Position numbers and translations under genes: made by a program. This document shows, piece after piece, positions 11,230 to 32,649 of a stretch of 46,714 bases of DNA. Source of the DNA: Candidatus Cloacimonadota bacterium (GTDB lineage Bacteria > Cloacimonadota > Cloacimonadia > Cloacimonadales > TCS61). The stretch is from contig JAGYMQ010000068.1 in the NCBI GenBank assembly GCA_018400535.1, positions 1-46,714 of the forward strand. Reading direction: 5' to 3'. The notes beneath the pieces were generated by a model. It had not been told where the DNA came from and did no database searches. It saw nothing but the letters and a program-made list of their open reading frames with translations. Every line of letters begins with the position of its first letter. The stretch's first letter is position 1.

Positions 11230-14200
11230 ATGAATAAATATTTTTACATAATTTTAGTTTATTCTCTTGTGATGAATCTTTCAGCAGAGATCATCGAACA
11301 GAATTATTTTTTTGGAAATCCCACCATTGCAGAGAAAGAAGGATTCCAGACAATTTCCTTTCCGCAAACAAAACTTTCAGGAAAAAAGGGCGAACCACTT
11401 CTGCCCTACTACGCTGTCAGATTATTACTACCGCCAGGACAGATCGCAGAGCAGATCGAGATCGTTTCATCGGATAGAAAAAAAATGGATGCTGAATTTC
11501 TGCTTGCTCCAGCTCAGCCTTCTCGACCGATATCTGCGGGACATAGCGGTGAATTTGTGATCAATGAACAGATCTATGACAGCGAAAATTCTTATCCTGA
11601 AAATCAGCATGGAAAATTGATCACGCAATTTATGAATGGACACGCCATCGCACTTACCACGATCACACCAATCGTCTATTTTCCTCAGCAAAAAGATATT
11701 TTTTATTTTGGAAAAATAACCGTCAGGATCAAGACAAGATCGTCTTCCAATTTTCCTTATGAAAAAATGAATTCCAATAAAATCGGGCGAATAAAAAAAT
11801 TCGTGCAAAATCCTGAAATGAGTTTTCGTTATAATTATCCGCTCAGAGATGACGAATATCAGATCCTGATCATCACGCCAACTATCTTCCAAAACGAACT
11901 TTCTGCTTTGGAACAACATTATTTGCAACAAGGTTTACTATCGCAGATCACCTCTCTGGCAGAGATCACTTCTTCCCAGCCAGGACAAGATGTTGCAGAA
12001 AAAATGAGAAATTACATTATACAGGAATATCAGGATCATGCAATCGAACACGTCATTCTCGTGGGCGATGTCGAACATTTGCCCTATCGCGGATTCTATT
12101 GTTATGTGGAATCGGGAAACGGTTATCAAGACGATGATATTCCGGCTGATCTCTATTTTTCAGCTCTTGATGGTAATTGGAATGATGATGGAGATGATCT
12201 TTGGGGCGAGATCGGTGAAGAAGATCTTTTACCAGAAATCGCTGTTGCTCGCATTTCCGTCAGCACAACCGATGAACTGCAAAATATGTTGAATAAAACT
12301 TTCGCTTTTGAAAATCAACCCGTTCTCGGAGAATTGCGAAATCCACTCCTTGCTGGCGAAAATCTTTATAACGACCCGTTAACTTGGGGTGGCGATTATC
12401 TCGATCTTCTAGTCGGCTTCCACGATGATAATGGCTATGTTACTGATGGAATTCCAAATGATCACAATATCACGACAATGTATGATCGCGATCTCGGTTC
12501 TTGGAATGGCTCAGAATTGATCGCTGAGATAAATCAAGGACAGTCTTTCATCCATCATTCGGGACACAGCAGCGCTGAATATACGATGCGATTGACAAAT
12601 TCTGATATCACGAACAACAATTTCTCACAGGTCAATGGCATTGATCACAATTTCACTTTCGTTTATTCACACGGCTGTATCTGCGGCGCTTTCGACCATG
12701 ATGATTGCATTGCCGAAAGAATGACAAATATTGAAAATTTCCTGGTCGCTTTTGTGGGAAATTCTCGTTACGGTTGGTTCAATGAAGGACAAACGGAAGG
12801 ACCTTCCGCTCATCTACACCGTGAATTCGTAGATGCTCTTTATACTGATAAATATCAGCGGATCGGACGAGCCCACATGGAATCAAAGATCGAAACAGCT
12901 CCCTGGGTAACTGCGCCAGGTCAATGGGAAGAAGGCGCATTAAGATGGTGTTTCTATGATTGTAATGTCCTGGGAAGCTCCGCTTTACCAGTTTGGACAG
13001 ATGAACCACTCGCGCTCACAGCAAATTTCGATCCTGTCATTTTTCTGGGCGAAGAAGAATTTTCGATAACTATATCGCAGAATGGCATTCCAGCCGAGAA
13101 TATCCGCTGCACTATCCTGCAGAATGATGAATTGATCGGCACAGCACAAACCGACATTACGGGATTTGCTGAGATAAATTTCGACCCGATGCTGCTTTCG
13201 ACAGGAAGTGCAGAACTGTTTATATCAGGCTACAATTTGCCTCCCGAAGAACACCAATTGCAAGTCGTTCCTGCTGGTTACTTTATAAATGTGACAGATC
13301 ATTCTCTGCAAGCTGGAAATGATGATGTCATCGAGTTTGGCGAAAATGCGCTTCTAAGTTTGACTTTGGCGGATATCGGAAATGTTGGCGATCTTCATAA
13401 TGTTTTCGTCGAAATCACAACAAACGACAATTTCATCCAAATCAATGATAATTTTGAAAATATCGGATTGTTTCCAAACGGAGGAACGCTGGAATTGAAC
13501 GATGCTTTCGATTTTGATGTTTCAGAAGCCCTTCCCGATGAACACGATTTTGCAATAGAAATCACAATTTTCAGCGATGAAGGAGAATGGACTTCGACAC
13601 TTGATCTAACCGGATTTGCTGCAAATATCGAATTATTGAATATCACTGTTTTGGATAATAACAATAGTTTTTTGGATCCGGGTGAAACCGCTGAACTGAC
13701 GCTAACTTTTCAAAATTCCGGTGGTGCTGATCTCTATCAGATCCTTCCACAAATTTTCACTGATAATCAATTAGTGGAAATCACAAATTATTTTCCTCAG
13801 CTCGATTCTTTGAATGCAGGTTATGAAACGGAAGCACTTATTTGCAGCATCGAATTGGATGAAAATATTCAGCTCGGTGAAAGCATTGATTTTCTCTTCC
13901 AGATCGCGGGACACAACAATTTTGCTCAAACTGAAGAATTTTCTTTACTGGTAGGACTTTCCATCGAAGATTTTGAAACGGGAGATTTTTCTTTATTTGA
14001 CTGGCAATTTTCTGGAAATGCTGATTGGTATATCACTTCAGATTCCTATCAAGGTAGCTTTGCTACACGTTCTGGAAATATTGACAACAATAATTTTTCA
14101 GAGTTATCTCTACAATTGGAAGTGATCGCAGAAGGTGAAATATCTTTTTGGAAAAAAATCTCTTCCGAAGCTGATTATGATTTCCTGAAATTTTATATTG

Positions 14201-14694
14201 ATGATATATTGCAAGAACAGTGGTCGGGTGAGATTGACTGGAGTGAATCAGTTTATCCAGTCTCTTCTGGAATTCACACATTCAGCTGGAAATACCAGAA
14301 GGATACTTACGTTTCCAACGGAGAAGATTGTGCCTGGCTTGATCAGATCACTTTTCCACCGATTTCTGGCGATGTGAGTAGCAACGAAATTCTCTTGCCA
14401 GCTAAAATTGAATTATTAGGCAACTATCCCAATCCCTTCAATCCAAGCACTACGATCAATTTTAATTCAACCGCAGAAAACACAAAGAGCACAGAGATAG
14501 TTATTTATAATTTGAAAGGACAGAAAATCCGCACTATTGAGTACATCTGCCGTGACAATACTGGATCATCACACTCCATAATCTGGAATGGACGAGATGA
14601 GAATGATGAACCTGTCAGCAGCGGAGTCTATTTTTATCGATTGAAAACAAATGGAGAAACTATCGCCAGCAGCAAAATGTTACTTTTGAAATAA
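11230..14694 (+). CDS. secreted C25 (gingipain-like) cysteine protease with FCB sorting tail
   Basis: 1154-residue secreted protein. Order: signal peptide (about 1-18), propeptide region, peptidase C25 catalytic domain (about 200-600), several beta-sandwich modules, and a C-terminal FlgD-Ig/type-A sorting-like domain. That domain contains NYPNPFNPSTTINF and ends SSGVYFYRLKTNGETIASSKMLLLK. The predicted catalytic dyad is H446 (HHSGHSS) and C483 (SHGCICGAF), matching the GH and CxxGxF patterns of C25 peptidases. The tail is of the kind used by type IX secretion in Bacteroidota and found widely in candidate FCB phyla. It is a single-gene unit behind a sigma-54-type promoter. It could degrade external protein to feed the amino acid pathway encoded next door. 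Substrate specificity is unknown. Confidence 0.9.
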   Translation: MNKYFYIILVYSLVMNLSAEIIEQNYFFGNPTIAEKEGFQTISFPQTKLSGKKGEPLLPYYAVRLLLPPGQIAEQIEIVSSDRKKMDAEFLLAPAQPSRPISAGHSGEFVINEQIYDSENSYPENQHGKLITQFMNGHAIALTTITPIVYFPQQKDIFYFGKITVRIKTRSSSNFPYEKMNSNKIGRIKKFVQNPEMSFRYNYPLRDDEYQILIITPTIFQNELSALEQHYLQQGLLSQITSLAEITSSQPGQDVAEKMRNYIIQEYQDHAIEHVILVGDVEHLPYRGFYCYVESGNGYQDDDIPADLYFSALDGNWNDDGDDLWGEIGEEDLLPEIAVARISVSTTDELQNMLNKTFAFENQPVLGELRNPLLAGENLYNDPLTWGGDYLDLLVGFHDDNGYVTDGIPNDHNITTMYDRDLGSWNGSELIAEINQGQSFIHHSGHSSAEYTMRLTNSDITNNNFSQVNGIDHNFTFVYSHGCICGAFDHDDCIAERMTNIENFLVAFVGNSRYGWFNEGQTEGPSAHLHREFVDALYTDKYQRIGRAHMESKIETAPWVTAPGQWEEGALRWCFYDCNVLGSSALPVWTDEPLALTANFDPVIFLGEEEFSITISQNGIPAENIRCTILQNDELIGTAQTDITGFAEINFDPMLLSTGSAELFISGYNLPPEEHQLQVVPAGYFINVTDHSLQAGNDDVIEFGENALLSLTLADIGNVGDLHNVFVEITTNDNFIQINDNFENIGLFPNGGTLELNDAFDFDVSEALPDEHDFAIEITIFSDEGEWTSTLDLTGFAANIELLNITVLDNNNSFLDPGETAELTLTFQNSGGADLYQILPQIFTDNQLVEITNYFPQLDSLNAGYETEALICSIELDENIQLGESIDFLFQIAGHNNFAQTEEFSLLVGLSIEDFETGDFSLFDWQFSGNADWYITSDSYQGSFATRSGNIDNNNFSELSLQLEVIAEGEISFWKKISSEADYDFLKFYIDDILQEQWSGEIDWSESVYPVSSGIHTFSWKYQKDTYVSNGEDCAWLDQITFPPISGDVSSNEILLPAKIELLGNYPNPFNPSTTINFNSTAENTKSTEIVIYNLKGQKIRTIEYICRDNTGSSHSIIWNGRDENDEPVSSGVYFYRLKTNGETIASSKMLLLK

Positions 14695-26660: not shown

Positions 26661-27889
26661 TAGAAAAAGCCGTTTTAGTTGGTGTTTGTCTAAATAAAAA
26701 AAATTATGCAGAAAAAGAAGCTTCGATCGCTGAATTGGTGCGACTGGCAGAAACTGCGAAAGTTAAAGTTTGCACAAAGCTGATCCAAAATCGAGAAAAA
26801 ATTGATCCAAAATATTTTGCTGGAAAAGGTTTTCTGCAAAAAATAAAAATGATCTTGCAAAATATAGAAAGCGATCTCTTGATCTTTGATAATGATCTGA
26901 CACCTTCGCAGGTGCGAAATATTGAAAGAGATTTTAAATTGAAAGCAATCGACCGTACAGAATTGATCTTGAATATTTTTCATCAGCATGCAAAGACAAA
27001 AGAGGCAAAATTGCAGGTTAGATTAGCAGAATTGCAATACCAACTGCCAAGATTGAAAAAATTGTGGTCTCATCTGGATCGAGAAAAAGGCACAGCTGGA
27101 AACGTCGGAACTGCGCGTGGAATGGGTGAAAAGCAGATCGAGATCGATAAAAGACTGGTGCGAAGAGAAATCGAAAAGGTGAAAAAAGAATTGGAGAAAA
27201 TAGATAAACAGACGGCAACGCAGCGAAAACAAAGAAAGAGATTTAAAAAGGTCTGTCTAGTGGGCTATACAAATGCTGGCAAATCAACATTATTCAACAG
27301 CTTAACAAATTCTGATGTCTTAGTCGAAGATAAACTTTTTGCTACCCTGGATTCAACTGCAGCAGAGATCAAATTCGACAAAGGCAGAAAATTGATCCTT
27401 TCAGATACTATCGGCTTCATCTCGCATCTTCCCCACCATCTGGTCGCTTCTTTCCGCGCCACTTTGCAAGACGTTATCGATGCTGATTTGCTCTTGCACA
27501 TCGTCGATTCTGCTGACGAGAATCAAAGATTCCAGATCAAAGAAGTAAAAAAAGTATTGAAGGAGATCGGAATAGAAGCTATCCCGCAGATCATGGTCAA
27601 TAACAAAAGCGATCTTATTGATTTCCCCAAAAAAGTTGCAAAAAATCAAATATTTATCTCGGCAGCAAAAAAGATCAATCTGGAAAATCTGAAAAAGCTG
27701 ATCGACGAAAATCTTCATCAAGCTGAAGAAATTGAATTTTTTTTCGACTATTCACAACAACATTTGGTCAATAAATTGCACAAGCTTGCCAAAGTTAGGC
27801 AAGAAAACTATCGCAATGATGGGATTGAGATCAAAGCGATCGTCAATCAAGAAGATCTGAGATATTTTGAAAGTAACAAAAAAAAATGA
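26657..27889 (+). CDS. hflX: ribosome-associated GTPase HflX
   Basis: GTPase that binds the 50S subunit and splits stalled or idle 70S ribosomes. It is known as a heat- and antibiotic-stress rescue factor in E. coli and Listeria. 410 residues: N-terminal HflX domain (1-130), linker with coiled coil and GMGEKQIEIDKR (155-166), then the G domain with G1 GYTNAGKS (203-210), G3 DTIGF (250-254) and G4 NKSD. ATGA overlap with the upstream ABC gene ties its expression to the leader-controlled exporter. This supports a translation-inhibitor response. The GNAT fusion gene follows after 7 bp. Confidence 0.95.
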   Translation: MIEKAVLVGVCLNKKNYAEKEASIAELVRLAETAKVKVCTKLIQNREKIDPKYFAGKGFLQKIKMILQNIESDLLIFDNDLTPSQVRNIERDFKLKAIDRTELILNIFHQHAKTKEAKLQVRLAELQYQLPRLKKLWSHLDREKGTAGNVGTARGMGEKQIEIDKRLVRREIEKVKKELEKIDKQTATQRKQRKRFKKVCLVGYTNAGKSTLFNSLTNSDVLVEDKLFATLDSTAAEIKFDKGRKLILSDTIGFISHLPHHLVASFRATLQDVIDADLLLHIVDSADENQRFQIKEVKKVLKEIGIEAIPQIMVNNKSDLIDFPKKVAKNQIFISAAKKINLENLKKLIDENLHQAEEIEFFFDYSQQHLVNKLHKLAKVRQENYRNDGIEIKAIVNQEDLRYFESNKKK

Positions 27890-27896
27890 GGTTAAT

Positions 27897-30800
27897 ATGA
27901 AAATTGTTCAATATTCTCATAAATATGCTGCTGGTGTGGCCGATATGTGGCGTAATAGCAAAAAAGGTTGGCTGGGTGAAGTCTTTTTTACCACAGCCGA
28001 AAATGTGATCGAAGAAGAAGAAAATTCTCCACGCGTCTGTTCCTGGATCGCTCTGGAAAAAGAAAAAGTTCTCGGTTATTGCAACCTCTATGAATACCGC
28101 GAAGAAGCAAATGCGCTTTATATCGGCCTTTTGAATGTGCGTGATGATCATCATGGAAAAAAGATCGGGAAAAAACTGCTGCTGCGAGCTGTGGAAAAAA
28201 CAGTTGAATTAGGCTGGAAAAGACTCGATCTTTACACTTGGAGCGGAAATACAAAAGCAGTTCCACTCTATAAAAAAGCTGGTTTTTTCTGGGAAGACCG
28301 CGATGATTCCACCCATATGATGAATTTCATACCAACCGTTCTGAATGAAGAATTATTGCACTCATACTTCCAAAAATTTCACTGGTATCAAGATTGTGCC
28401 AGAAATCTGGAAGTGAAACCAGATGGCAAAAAAGAAAATAGCTTTGAATACTACACATATAAATGGAAAAAAGATAATGAAAGCCTGGAAATTGATTTTT
28501 GCCGAAGAGGTCGCGGTTTGCGCCGTATCAAGACCAAAGATTTCGAGATCACAGCAACCGTCGAAAATCTGAAACTGGTTTTCGAATGCGAATATGAGAT
28601 CAAATATCAGATCAGAAATAAAAGGGAAAAACCTTTGAAGATCAGCTTCTCTGGAATCAATGATCGCAATATCAAATTTCACTGGGAAAAAACAATTTTG
28701 GTGAAAAACGACAAAACGATCACGTCAAAATTTTTTGTGGGAAAGATTGATCAAGAACAGAATATCAAGAAAACACATCCTCGCGTTTCCACAAAAATTT
28801 CTGTTGATGGAAAAAGTGCGATCTTCCAGATCGGTATAATGCCAAAGTTTCCAGCAAATCTAACGCTCCAGAAAAAATACGGACTCGTCTTTACTGAGAC
28901 AAGATCTGAGCTTTTTCTGGATATCGAAAATAATTTTCAGGAAACTGCTGAATTTTCATTTTCACTGCCCGAAACCGATGAGATCAAATTCTCTAAACAG
29001 AATTTCAATTTCAAACTGCGCGCTGAAGAAAAAAAATCGATCTTGATAAATTATTTCTTGCAAAAAGGTTTCATCTATTCCCCGCAGATCAAGATCACAA
29101 CAAAGCGCAAAGATCATAATGAACTCAAATTCCAGCGAAAATTGAACCTCAGCTTCCAGACTCTGTCAGATATGTTTGTCGGCAACACGCAGCAAGCAGA
29201 AATGATCGTGAATGGAAATTTTGGCTTTTATCTGATCAAAAAAGATTATTTCAATCGTGCCCGTTTCATTGATAGCAAGTTTGAATCTGCTGGAATGGGC
29301 TTCGATGTTCCCCATTTAGGAAAACCCTATTCTAGCGAATTCAATCAAAAAAAATATGAAAATGTAACATTTGAAGAAAACGGGAACAGCCTTCTTTTGT
29401 GCGCAGAATTCAAATCCAAAACCTATGCTGGAATTTCCTTCAAAATTTTCAATAAACTCTTTGCTAACGGGATATTAGAACGGTGGTTGGAATTTTATTC
29501 AGAAGGAAAGATCAAACACAAAGATCTTTTTTTCAAAGATGGGTTCTGGCTTGGGCGCAACAGATTGACGCTTCCCTACAAAGATCGCATCATCGAAACC
29601 GAACCAGAATTGACAGGAGGAATAAGCAATTGGGATTCTGCTCATCTCACAGAAAATTGGCTCTTTTCTTCCAAAAAAGATGCTTCGATCGGAATAATCT
29701 GGAATCATGAAAATTCACTCAGATTTGGAGATTGGAAAGCTTATATCGAGTATGATCTAAAGAAACTCTCTAAGCAAAAAAAATTGAAGACAAAACCCAT
29801 CATCTTTGCCCTGAATACTTTTTCAAATTGGCAGCAAGTGCGTAAATATGCTCAAAAAAAACATTATACTCATCTTCCTCTCACCACAGAAAGTCTTTCT
29901 TTCCAGATAAATTGCGGAAATCCTTTTGTAAATAGCGCTTTCCCAGTTCAGATCAAAGAATTCAAAAACCAGACACAAGCTGGAAAAATCAAAGTATCCT
30001 CACAAAATGATCTATTCAAAAAATTTGATCTGCTTTTTTCAGAACAGGATCAACAAAATTTTACATTGGAAAAGAATGTGAAATTGCTTTCCAAACATAA
30101 TATTGACCTGATCAATTTCCAGAATGATTTCACCGCCTTCAGCTATAAAAGACGAAAAGTAATATTTCCAACTTTTGAGCAGATCAAACAAGAGCGGATA
30201 GAAAAGGAACAGAAAGAAGTTTATTTATTATCGAATAAACAAATTTCTATCGCTGCTGCCAAAGATTTTGCTCCCACACTTTTCTCGCTGAAATATCGTG
30301 ATCGGGAATGGCTAAACAATGCTTTCCCCAAACCAAAAATTCTGAGTTGGTGGAATAAGTGGTTTGGCGGGATCTTCACTTTCCCTGCTCAGATGCAGTT
30401 CAAATCGATCTTGAATGAAGATCATCAAATCAAATTTGTTGAGCAGAAGGATAATTTTGGAAATAACTGGCAGGGCATCGCAATCACAACGAAGATCAAC
30501 AAATTTGAAGAACTGAAAGGCTGCGAACTAACGCAATATTTTCTCCTTTTGCCATCTTCTCCTGTGCTCTGTCACATGGTGAGATTCCAACAAAAATTGG
30601 GAAAATATTTACCCAGATTCCATCTTGAAAAAAATTGCTTTGTTCAGGCAGATAAACATTTGCAAAATACTTTTTTCCATACTTTGGATAACGAAGAACC
30701 AACTTTTTGGGCACATGCAGGCAAAGAAATGACCAGCATTTCAGGCAATAAAGCGCTTGTTTTTTCTGGAAAAGATCGTCCTGAAAAAATGCATCTATTT

Positions 30801-30989
30801 TTCCATCCAGATAATCGCTGCTTCGCAATGACAGATATAAAATCTTTAGTCGCCTGGATCGATGAAACGATCAGTTCGCAAGATGGTAAAATCTATTGGC
30901 TCAAACCATTATTTTTTATTTTCTCAGAAAATATCTTGCAAGCCGCCGAGCTGAAAGATCTGCTTAACATTAGATTTCAGAATGATTGA
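27897..30989 (+). CDS. giant GNAT acetyltransferase fused to a large beta-rich region
   Basis: 1030 residues. Residues 1-150 are a GNAT N-acetyltransferase domain with the acetyl-CoA loop VRDDHHGKKIGKKLL (81-95) and a C-terminal WSGNTKAVPLYKKAGF typical of the fold. The remaining 880 residues look beta-rich without transmembrane segments or a signal peptide. They include stretches such as GISNWDSAHLTENWLF and FTFPAQMQFKSIL that resemble carbohydrate-binding or mutarotase-like sandwich proteins, but I cannot assign a family. I chose the ATG at 27897 with GAGG 5 nt upstream. An earlier start would overlap hflX. Last gene of the exporter-HflX operon. Target of acetylation unknown. Confidence 0.72.
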   Translation: MKIVQYSHKYAAGVADMWRNSKKGWLGEVFFTTAENVIEEEENSPRVCSWIALEKEKVLGYCNLYEYREEANALYIGLLNVRDDHHGKKIGKKLLLRAVEKTVELGWKRLDLYTWSGNTKAVPLYKKAGFFWEDRDDSTHMMNFIPTVLNEELLHSYFQKFHWYQDCARNLEVKPDGKKENSFEYYTYKWKKDNESLEIDFCRRGRGLRRIKTKDFEITATVENLKLVFECEYEIKYQIRNKREKPLKISFSGINDRNIKFHWEKTILVKNDKTITSKFFVGKIDQEQNIKKTHPRVSTKISVDGKSAIFQIGIMPKFPANLTLQKKYGLVFTETRSELFLDIENNFQETAEFSFSLPETDEIKFSKQNFNFKLRAEEKKSILINYFLQKGFIYSPQIKITTKRKDHNELKFQRKLNLSFQTLSDMFVGNTQQAEMIVNGNFGFYLIKKDYFNRARFIDSKFESAGMGFDVPHLGKPYSSEFNQKKYENVTFEENGNSLLLCAEFKSKTYAGISFKIFNKLFANGILERWLEFYSEGKIKHKDLFFKDGFWLGRNRLTLPYKDRIIETEPELTGGISNWDSAHLTENWLFSSKKDASIGIIWNHENSLRFGDWKAYIEYDLKKLSKQKKLKTKPIIFALNTFSNWQQVRKYAQKKHYTHLPLTTESLSFQINCGNPFVNSAFPVQIKEFKNQTQAGKIKVSSQNDLFKKFDLLFSEQDQQNFTLEKNVKLLSKHNIDLINFQNDFTAFSYKRRKVIFPTFEQIKQERIEKEQKEVYLLSNKQISIAAAKDFAPTLFSLKYRDREWLNNAFPKPKILSWWNKWFGGIFTFPAQMQFKSILNEDHQIKFVEQKDNFGNNWQGIAITTKINKFEELKGCELTQYFLLLPSSPVLCHMVRFQQKLGKYLPRFHLEKNCFVQADKHLQNTFFHTLDNEEPTFWAHAGKEMTSISGNKALVFSGKDRPEKMHLFFHPDNRCFAMTDIKSLVAWIDETISSQDGKIYWLKPLFFIFSENILQAAELKDLLNIRFQND

Positions 30990-31061: not shown

Positions 31062-31125
31062 CTTTGCTTTGAAAAAACTTGTTCATATAAACATTAATAA
31101 ATTATTGGATAAGAAAGAGAAAAAA

Positions 31126-32649
31126 ATGAAAGTAATTTTAGCAGGTTTCAATATTGACAAGAGCCAGATCGATAAGCTGGCAGAAAAGGAAAAGGTTACG
31201 CCGGAAACGCTTTCAGCAGCTTATGCGCGCATCAGTCGCGATCCGCGCGATGTTCCAGAATTGCGCTCCGAAGCGATCGAAAAGGTGAAGAAAGCAAGGC
31301 GTTCGAATCGAGCGATCGTTTTTGGGATGAGCCATCATTCAGTTGCAGAACACGCCTATTTTAATTTTGATGTTTTGGAAATTTCGCGTCTCGCTTTGGA
31401 AGAATTGGAAGCGCGTCGTATCGGAGTGGCTTACACAGAAAAATCCCAGCGCTATATCAAATTGGAAGGCGATTTCGTTTTACCCGCAGAATTTTCGGAA
31501 AAAGATGCTGAGAAATTTAGCAAGCTGGTACACATTCAAAATGATTTTTATCAGAAGACTTTTCCGAAATTGTTAGAATATCAATCTGCGATCCATCCCG
31601 AACTGAAGGGAAAAGCTGCAGAAGCAGATCGGAGAGGAATTTCAACGAAGATGAACCGCGCAAGAAACACGCTGGAAGGTTGGGCAAAAGAAGACGCTCG
31701 CTATGGTCTCAGTCTGGCAACTCAGGCTCAATTGGGTCTTTCTTTCAATGCGCGCACGCTGGAATATGCAATTCGTAAAATGCGCTATTCTGAATTAGCA
31801 GAAGTGCGTGATCTATCTCAAAAATTATATGCTTCTGCAAAAAAAGTTGCACCGTCTTTGATCATTCTTTCTGATCCGCAGGAATTTCAAAAAGCATTTC
31901 AAAGAAAATTGGAAGAAGATCATCTTAAATTCACAAAATCTCATCTGCGGAAATTCGTGGGGAAACTAAAAAAAGAGATTTCTGGAGATAATTCTATCAG
32001 GCTACCTGAAATTAGTTATTCCAAAAACGTGAAATTCATCTCAGAAAATGATATAGATAAAAATTTGATGGCAGCGATCATTCATCATCATTCGCAATTA
32101 TCAATCGAAAAAGCCTATCAATTAGCAGAAAATATCCTGCAAAACAGAAAAGCAAGAGAAGAATTTTTTCCAACAGTCTGGAAATTTATCTCCCTTTTTG
32201 ATGCAATGCCCCGTGAATTTGAATTTACTGATAAACTCAAATTTGAAGTGATCGTGAGTGCATCTAATTTTGCTCAATTAAAACGCCATCGCTTAATGAC
32301 GATCCTTGCCCAAGATTATGATCCAGAGTTGGGCATAACGATTCCAAATTCTCTGAAAATGATCAAAGCAGAGGTGGAATTTCAAAAACTTTGTCAGCAA
32401 AGTGAAACCCTTTATTTTGAGTTCTTGCCCAAATATGGCAAAGCCGCTGAATATTGTCTGACAAATGCTCATCGACGGCGTGTTCTGATCTCTGTTAATC
32501 CTCGTGAGCTTTATCATTTTTCTCGCCTTCGTGAGGATGAACATGCACAGTGGGATATCAAAGAAACTGCTGGCAATATGCTCGATTTGGCGAGAAGAAC
32601 TGCGCCTTTGTCGTTTCAATTTGCTGGCGGAAAAAATCAATTTCTATGA
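31126..32649 (+). CDS. double-domain ThyX-like (flavin-dependent thymidylate synthase family) protein
   Basis: 507 residues made of two ThyX-like domains. Domain 1 (1-250) has HHSVAEHAYFNFDVLEISRLALEELEARRIG followed by EKSQRY (R97, S107, R109 kept, but RHR lost). Domain 2 (300-500) has LKRHRLMTILAQDYD (R387-H388-R389 kept, but the SxR end lost), then NPRELYHFSRLREDEHAQWDIKE. Together the two halves hold one complete RHR...SxR signature, split between domains. Classical ThyX is about 220-250 residues and tetrameric, so this may be a fused form. It could make dTMP from dUMP with FAD, or have drifted to another task. The start at 31126 is chosen over a longer TTG form. Confidence 0.75.
   Translation: MKVILAGFNIDKSQIDKLAEKEKVTPETLSAAYARISRDPRDVPELRSEAIEKVKKARRSNRAIVFGMSHHSVAEHAYFNFDVLEISRLALEELEARRIGVAYTEKSQRYIKLEGDFVLPAEFSEKDAEKFSKLVHIQNDFYQKTFPKLLEYQSAIHPELKGKAAEADRRGISTKMNRARNTLEGWAKEDARYGLSLATQAQLGLSFNARTLEYAIRKMRYSELAEVRDLSQKLYASAKKVAPSLIILSDPQEFQKAFQRKLEEDHLKFTKSHLRKFVGKLKKEISGDNSIRLPEISYSKNVKFISENDIDKNLMAAIIHHHSQLSIEKAYQLAENILQNRKAREEFFPTVWKFISLFDAMPREFEFTDKLKFEVIVSASNFAQLKRHRLMTILAQDYDPELGITIPNSLKMIKAEVEFQKLCQQSETLYFEFLPKYGKAAEYCLTNAHRRRVLISVNPRELYHFSRLREDEHAQWDIKETAGNMLDLARRTAPLSFQFAGGKNQFL

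Follow-up and report, generated by a model that had tools for sequence, protein, structure and literature searches.

A doubled ThyX of Cloacimonadota with its signature motif divided between two domains, a candidate thymidylate synthase

A 507-aa protein encoded in a 46,714-nucleotide stretch of DNA from a Candidatus Cloacimonadota bacterium (contig JAGYMQ010000068.1; this whole stretch is called the window) resembles ThyX in both of its halves, and each half carries a different part of the ThyX signature motif. The question raised by this locus is whether two such halves make up a working thymidylate synthase and, if so, which part of an active site each of them would supply.

Two ThyX domains with complementary residues

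The open reading frame extends from an ATG at 31126 to a stop at 32649 on the plus strand, as do all window features given below, and a ribosome-binding-like sequence, AAGAAAGAG (31111-31119), was read directly shortly 5' of the ATG. Pfam family PF02511 (Thy1) matched the protein twice (E 4.5e-49, 167.3 bits versus a cut-off of 24.8), with both stretches (31198-31857 and 32233-32607) above the Pfam cut-off, and the NCBIfam thyX model TIGR02170 scored 104.2 bits against a cut-off of 87.9. The original prediction, made from the DNA letters, had described a duplicated ThyX-like protein at 31126-32649; the frame and the two PF02511 matches show that its coordinates and description were right.

AlphaFold, supplied with 75 aligned family members, returned a monomer model with a pLDDT of 85.5 and a pTM of 0.85. 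Three stretches had low confidence: residues 62-69, the SxR loop (107-110) and residues 249-269, with a pLDDT <50 at the interdomain linker (31912-32007). Domain 1 (residues 1-262; 31126-31911) matched M. tuberculosis ThyX over model residues 1-261 (3hzg_A; Z 14.5, rmsd 3.2, 204 residues aligned), and domain 2 (residues 295-507; 32008-32646) matched T. maritima ThyX (3g4a_A; Z 13.4, rmsd 2.4, 194 residues aligned). These figures were obtained by using VIA-align; Foldseek aligned single ThyX chains at high rmsd and with low TM over the query. Both halves are predicted to adopt the ThyX fold, and the monomer model speaks to the fold of each half only, being silent on composite sites.

The active sites of structurally characterized ThyX enzymes provide a key to the residues found in the two halves. 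In M. tuberculosis ThyX, subunit A of a site contributes the RHR motif (residues 95-97) and R199, subunit B contributes S71 and R190, and subunit C contributes R87, the Q103 backbone, S105, R107 and the lid residue Y108 (PMC6514825). Excerpts of other accounts describe a like division in PBCV-1 ThyX, with Gln75 and Arg182 on one monomer and Ser88/Gln89 on the other (PMC3498832), place H53 of T. maritima ThyX on a third monomer, and report that the SxR-matching loop is flexible in the oxidised T. maritima protein (PMC11940539). The premise that classical ThyX builds its sites between subunits therefore holds, and the motif halves, which work in one site, do come from different subunits.

We assigned equivalents in an alignment of 110 relatives, mostly from a phmmer alignment and, for domain 2 upstream of RHR, by gapless back-counting. 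Domain 1 contains the residues of roles B and C. The triplet H70-H71-S72 (31333-31341) holds the equivalents of M. tuberculosis H69 (T. maritima H53, a correspondence numbered by our own alignment) and S71, both assigned to role B, with the histidine and the serine each kept in 107/110 relatives. R88 (31387-31389) corresponds to R87, a dUMP residue of role C (108/110), and E105-K-S107-Q-R109-Y110 (31438-31455) forms the SxR loop with the lid tyrosine, also on the dUMP side and of role C, its S, Q, R and Y each being present in 109/110. N208-A-R210 (31747-31755) ends in the equivalent of R190, an FAD phosphate residue of role B (109/110). Role A is lost from this domain: A96-R97-R98 (31411-31419) stands where RHR would be expected, the first position of that motif is arginine in 33 relatives but the full motif occurs in none, and the R199 equivalent is arginine in just 26. 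R98 itself is kept in 108/110 relatives.

Domain 2 shows the reverse arrangement. R387-H388-R389 (32284-32292, within KRHR at 386-389) is the FAD motif of role A, with each residue found in 109/110 relatives, and R469 (32530-32532; 108/110) is the equivalent of M. tuberculosis R199 and T. maritima R174, the role-A arginine that activates dUMP; H473, the H203 equivalent, is kept in 97 of the 110. The R87 equivalent occurs in no relative, the position being occupied by A, E, S or Q, and the H69 equivalent is lost. At the place of S71 the role-B residue is replaced by a conserved arginine, R363 (32212-32214; R in 106/110). An R190 equivalent is present in this domain too (R460, 108/110), as is the conserved E366 (109/110).

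Taken across the alignment, RHR was found in domain 1 of none and in domain 2 of 109 of the 110 relatives, SQRY in domain 1 of 109, and SxR[YFH] in the domain-2 loop of none; the single row without SQRY or RHR is a gap. This agrees with the earlier reading of the one sequence, by which domain 1 keeps SxR (as SQR) without RHR and domain 2 the opposite. The pattern RHRx7-8SxR is not found whole within one domain and is complete only when both domains are counted together. Because RHR lies solely in domain 2 and SxR solely in domain 1, the protein belongs to the ThyX family by descent and is not a classical ThyX. The FAD- and dUMP-contact residues of subunits A, B and C are all present, those of A in domain 2 and those of B and C in domain 1; the loss of such residues, which had been named as a finding that would count against the prediction, was not seen in the alignment, where they are kept and divided between the domains.

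Two other genes of the window were noted. A 1040-aa protein (27867-30989) has an N-terminal GNAT acetyltransferase domain followed by ~900 residues without a Pfam match at E 1e-5, and a 1154-aa C25 (gingipain-type) peptidase (11230-14694) carries a Por secretion tail, which suggests a type IX secretion system.

Conservation of the split and the rarity of ThyA beside it

Relatives at E <= 1e-10 were found in 103 of the 124 genomes of Cloacimonadota, the phylum of the window, and in 66/70 of the good genomes. A contig scan yielded 80 loci that were kept, with named hosts among Cloacimonadota, Syntrophaceae, other Deltaproteobacteria, Aminicenantes, Acidobacteria, Stahlbacteria, WOR-3, Margulisiibacteriota, Fischerbacteria and Spirochaetales; this one scan returned no Chlamydia or Chloroflexi loci. 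The split architecture is widespread and is not peculiar to the genome of the window.

The 110-row set had been found partly with the pattern TEKSQRY as bait and could not be trusted alone for conservation of SxR; we therefore repeated the count on proteins drawn without the motif. The same split was present in 77/77 doubled ThyX proteins obtained by family or whole-protein searches (37 by Pfam domain from a spirochaete-containing phylum sample and 40 from Cloacimonadota by whole-protein search) and in 58/58 from a third, Acidobacteria-containing phylum sample; the proteins read from the spirochaete-containing and third samples are a portion of the doubled ones detected there. The Cloacimonadota sets share members with the 110 relatives, such that the counts are not additive. 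Single-length ThyX proteins, by comparison, held both motifs in 44/44 cases. Together, the 110-relative, 77/77 and 58/58 counts rule out a split by chance, and as judged from these sequences the split motif is not decay.

Sixty loci were read in the third sample, and two of them (L270 and L282) were not doubled. These had looked like exceptions, with RHR missing and SGRY late, and were rejected as such; in each, an intein-like insert interrupts a lone ThyX domain within the motif. The insert is ~410 aa long with an HNH-like region (G430:C1:4377000-4379500 and G523:C34:101900-104300, respectively).

A tree built with the motif columns left out resolved three doubled-ThyX groups: the window type, a long type (lineage ii; L162, L175, L179 and L198) and a divergent short type (lineage iii; L117, L180 and L185). 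The split is oriented alike in all three. All domain 2 sequences grouped together in this tree (support 86/90), and forcing the domain 1 sequences together cost 4.67 log units (p-AU 0.458, motif columns likewise omitted). No R190 equivalent is present in either domain of the long type, and domain 1 of the short type is without the R87 equivalent, so the map of roles given above is exact only in the lineage of the window. Among the short proteins, L117 was encoded on a human faecal scaffold labelled Bacteriophage sp. (MT835736.1) and is 22% identical to the window protein with the same split, and L180 (genome G160) and L185 (G147), from the spirochaete-containing sample, have frames of 417-434 aa with SRRY in domain 1.

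To relate the protein to thymidylate synthesis, we searched its own genome (95.67% complete) and found no match to PF00303 (ThyA), no other ThyX in a PF02511 search and no FolA-type DHFR (PF00186). The original prediction had proposed looking elsewhere in the genome for thyA or a single-domain thyX, and neither turned up. A recognisable DHFR is absent from many ThyX users, according to an excerpt of PMC1971073. Thymidine kinase is encoded in the genome; therefore, salvage could feed dTMP.

Genomes with doubled ThyX seldom encode a full-length ThyA. Within Cloacimonadota it was detected in 5 of the 124 genomes (G059, G060, G103, G104 and G105), four of which are without doubled ThyX; this corresponds to 1/103 doubled-ThyX genomes versus 4/21 others (Fisher p 0.0028, with kinship ignored and with partial PF00303 matches in G008 and G093, both doubled-ThyX genomes, left uncounted). 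The spirochaete-containing sample of 198 genomes gave 0/38 identified doubled-ThyX genomes versus 41/160 others (Fisher 7.9e-5, kinship again ignored; weak partial PF00303 matches in 20 genomes, none of them doubled, were uncounted). Among the 14 genomes examined that carry named loci from other groups, doubled ThyX was present in 14/14, with no PF00303 match in 13 and a weak partial one in the remaining genome. Doubled ThyX, present in 66/70 of the good genomes, is likely the sole thymidylate synthase of much of Cloacimonadota. Two genomes of the phylum, G039 and G073 (99% and 94% complete), matched neither ThyX nor ThyA; assembly gaps may account for this, or the organisms may be thymidine auxotrophs.

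A putative composite active site

The partition of residues is consistent with a protein that is very likely the thymidylate synthase of this organism, in which fused ThyX domains share the work of the active site and a homodimer of pseudo-dimers would have two live sites of a possible four. Domain 2 would act as subunit A, with RHR binding FAD and R469 activating dUMP. Domain 1 would act as subunit C, with R88, S107, R109 and Y110 holding dUMP and closing the lid, and domain 1 of the partner chain would take the place of subunit B, its S72 and R210 contacting the FAD phosphates and its H70 stacking on folate or flavin. Each chain has one domain 1 and the roles B and C belong to different subunits, so a complete site would need two chains. 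The pair of chains would then amount to a pseudo-tetramer in which one domain 2 and two domain 1s come together at each of two live sites. If the chains assemble with 222 symmetry and the domain 2s occupy the A/D diagonal, domain 1s would provide B as well as C to sites A and D; a two-fold pseudo-tetramer with this diagonal requires B and C to lie together on domain 1, as they do. The remaining two positions would draw B and C from domain 2s and would be dead, their flavin and dUMP residues having been lost, and the observed losses fit this geometry. From this arrangement of residues we infer the homodimer, its diagonal geometry, the two sites and dTMP synthesis. The original prediction that complementary halves could rebuild one working site gains support from retained residues that sort by subunit role in 110 relatives; it needs amendment in that the halves are complementary yet one polypeptide would be insufficient, the B role also lying in domain 1, so that two chains would be called for.

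The dead sites may have acquired a use of their own. Somewhat speculatively, they might bind an adenine nucleotide (NADPH or a feedback nucleotide) as built-in allosteric or reductant sites, a suggestion that we regard as doubtful. Their phosphate/adenine side is kept in the lineage of the window (R98 108/110, R363 106/110, E366 109/110 and R460 108/110). Plain interface maintenance explains these conserved residues equally well, and most of them (R98, R363, E366, R460) are not kept in lineage ii. NADP+ is found at the FAD site of the M. tuberculosis enzyme, and the place where NADPH binds during flavin reduction by ThyX is still open (PMC6514825). If the suggestion were true, fusion would have reduced the active sites from four to two and given over the other two positions to allosteric or reductant use.

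Composite sites might also form by another arrangement of chains, such as one chain together with a second domain 2 or pairing across chains only, and the number of live sites would then differ. We consider this unlikely: the retention of R460 (108/110) and E366 (109/110) means that domain 2 could still play B in part, and lineage ii does not follow the B pattern, but domain 2 is without equivalents of S71 and H69, which are residues of a third subunit (PMC6514825; excerpt of PMC11940539). That the fusion is decaying or without function, or that it arose from faulty assembly, is scarcely credible, since the same architecture and split recur in many separate assemblies, several of them on megabase contigs, with invariant residues in both domains, and no point in its favour was found.

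The original prediction had also offered a diverged paralogue with a different reaction, that is, a ThyX relative that methylates another pyrimidine or carries out some other flavin reaction, dTMP being obtained by salvage. The thymidine kinase gene would fit such a protein, and ThyX-fold relatives with other roles are on record, to go by PDB titles: the PolB UMP/dUMP methylase (4p5b) and the C. glutamicum ThyX, described as not needed for thymidylate. Against these points, the gene is the only one of ThyX/ThyA type in its genome, all named dUMP and FAD contacts are kept and split by role, the protein occurs in 103/124 genomes of the phylum and rarely alongside ThyA, and the lack of a PF00186 DHFR is usual for ThyX users (PMC1971073, in excerpt). 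A changed reaction thus appears quite improbable and is less favoured than the composite-site thymidylate synthase, given that the contacts are kept and no other ThyX or ThyA was found.

Comparison with known ThyX enzymes

As an example of labour division that followed the fusion of genes and is retained in many phyla, the composite-site enzyme would be a clean one. Humans lack ThyX, which is a drug target, and having one role per domain allows each role to be mutated separately, which is impossible in a homotetramer. The ThyX of C. trachomatis is ~530 aa long and so is probably doubled. That protein has been isolated and its activity assayed (excerpt of PMC3498832); if it is doubled and carries the split, its assays would already imply that the split form is active.

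Doubled ThyX of other phyla entered the literature in 2009: the paper of that year states, in the portion available, that Chloroflexi except Dehalococcoides have a domain-duplicated ThyX that 'has not been characterized', and the same portion does not mention a split motif (PMC3224940). Beyond that paper, our searches of open-access literature turned up no account of doubled ThyX, nor any of the split motif. The likeness to single-domain ThyX, or FDTS, of T. maritima (TM0449), M. tuberculosis and PBCV-1 lies in the fold of both halves, in Pfam and NCBIfam membership and in the role residues. Classical ThyX is a one-domain homotetramer in which every subunit carries the whole motif and the four sites are equal, whereas doubled ThyX has two domains with half of the motif in each.
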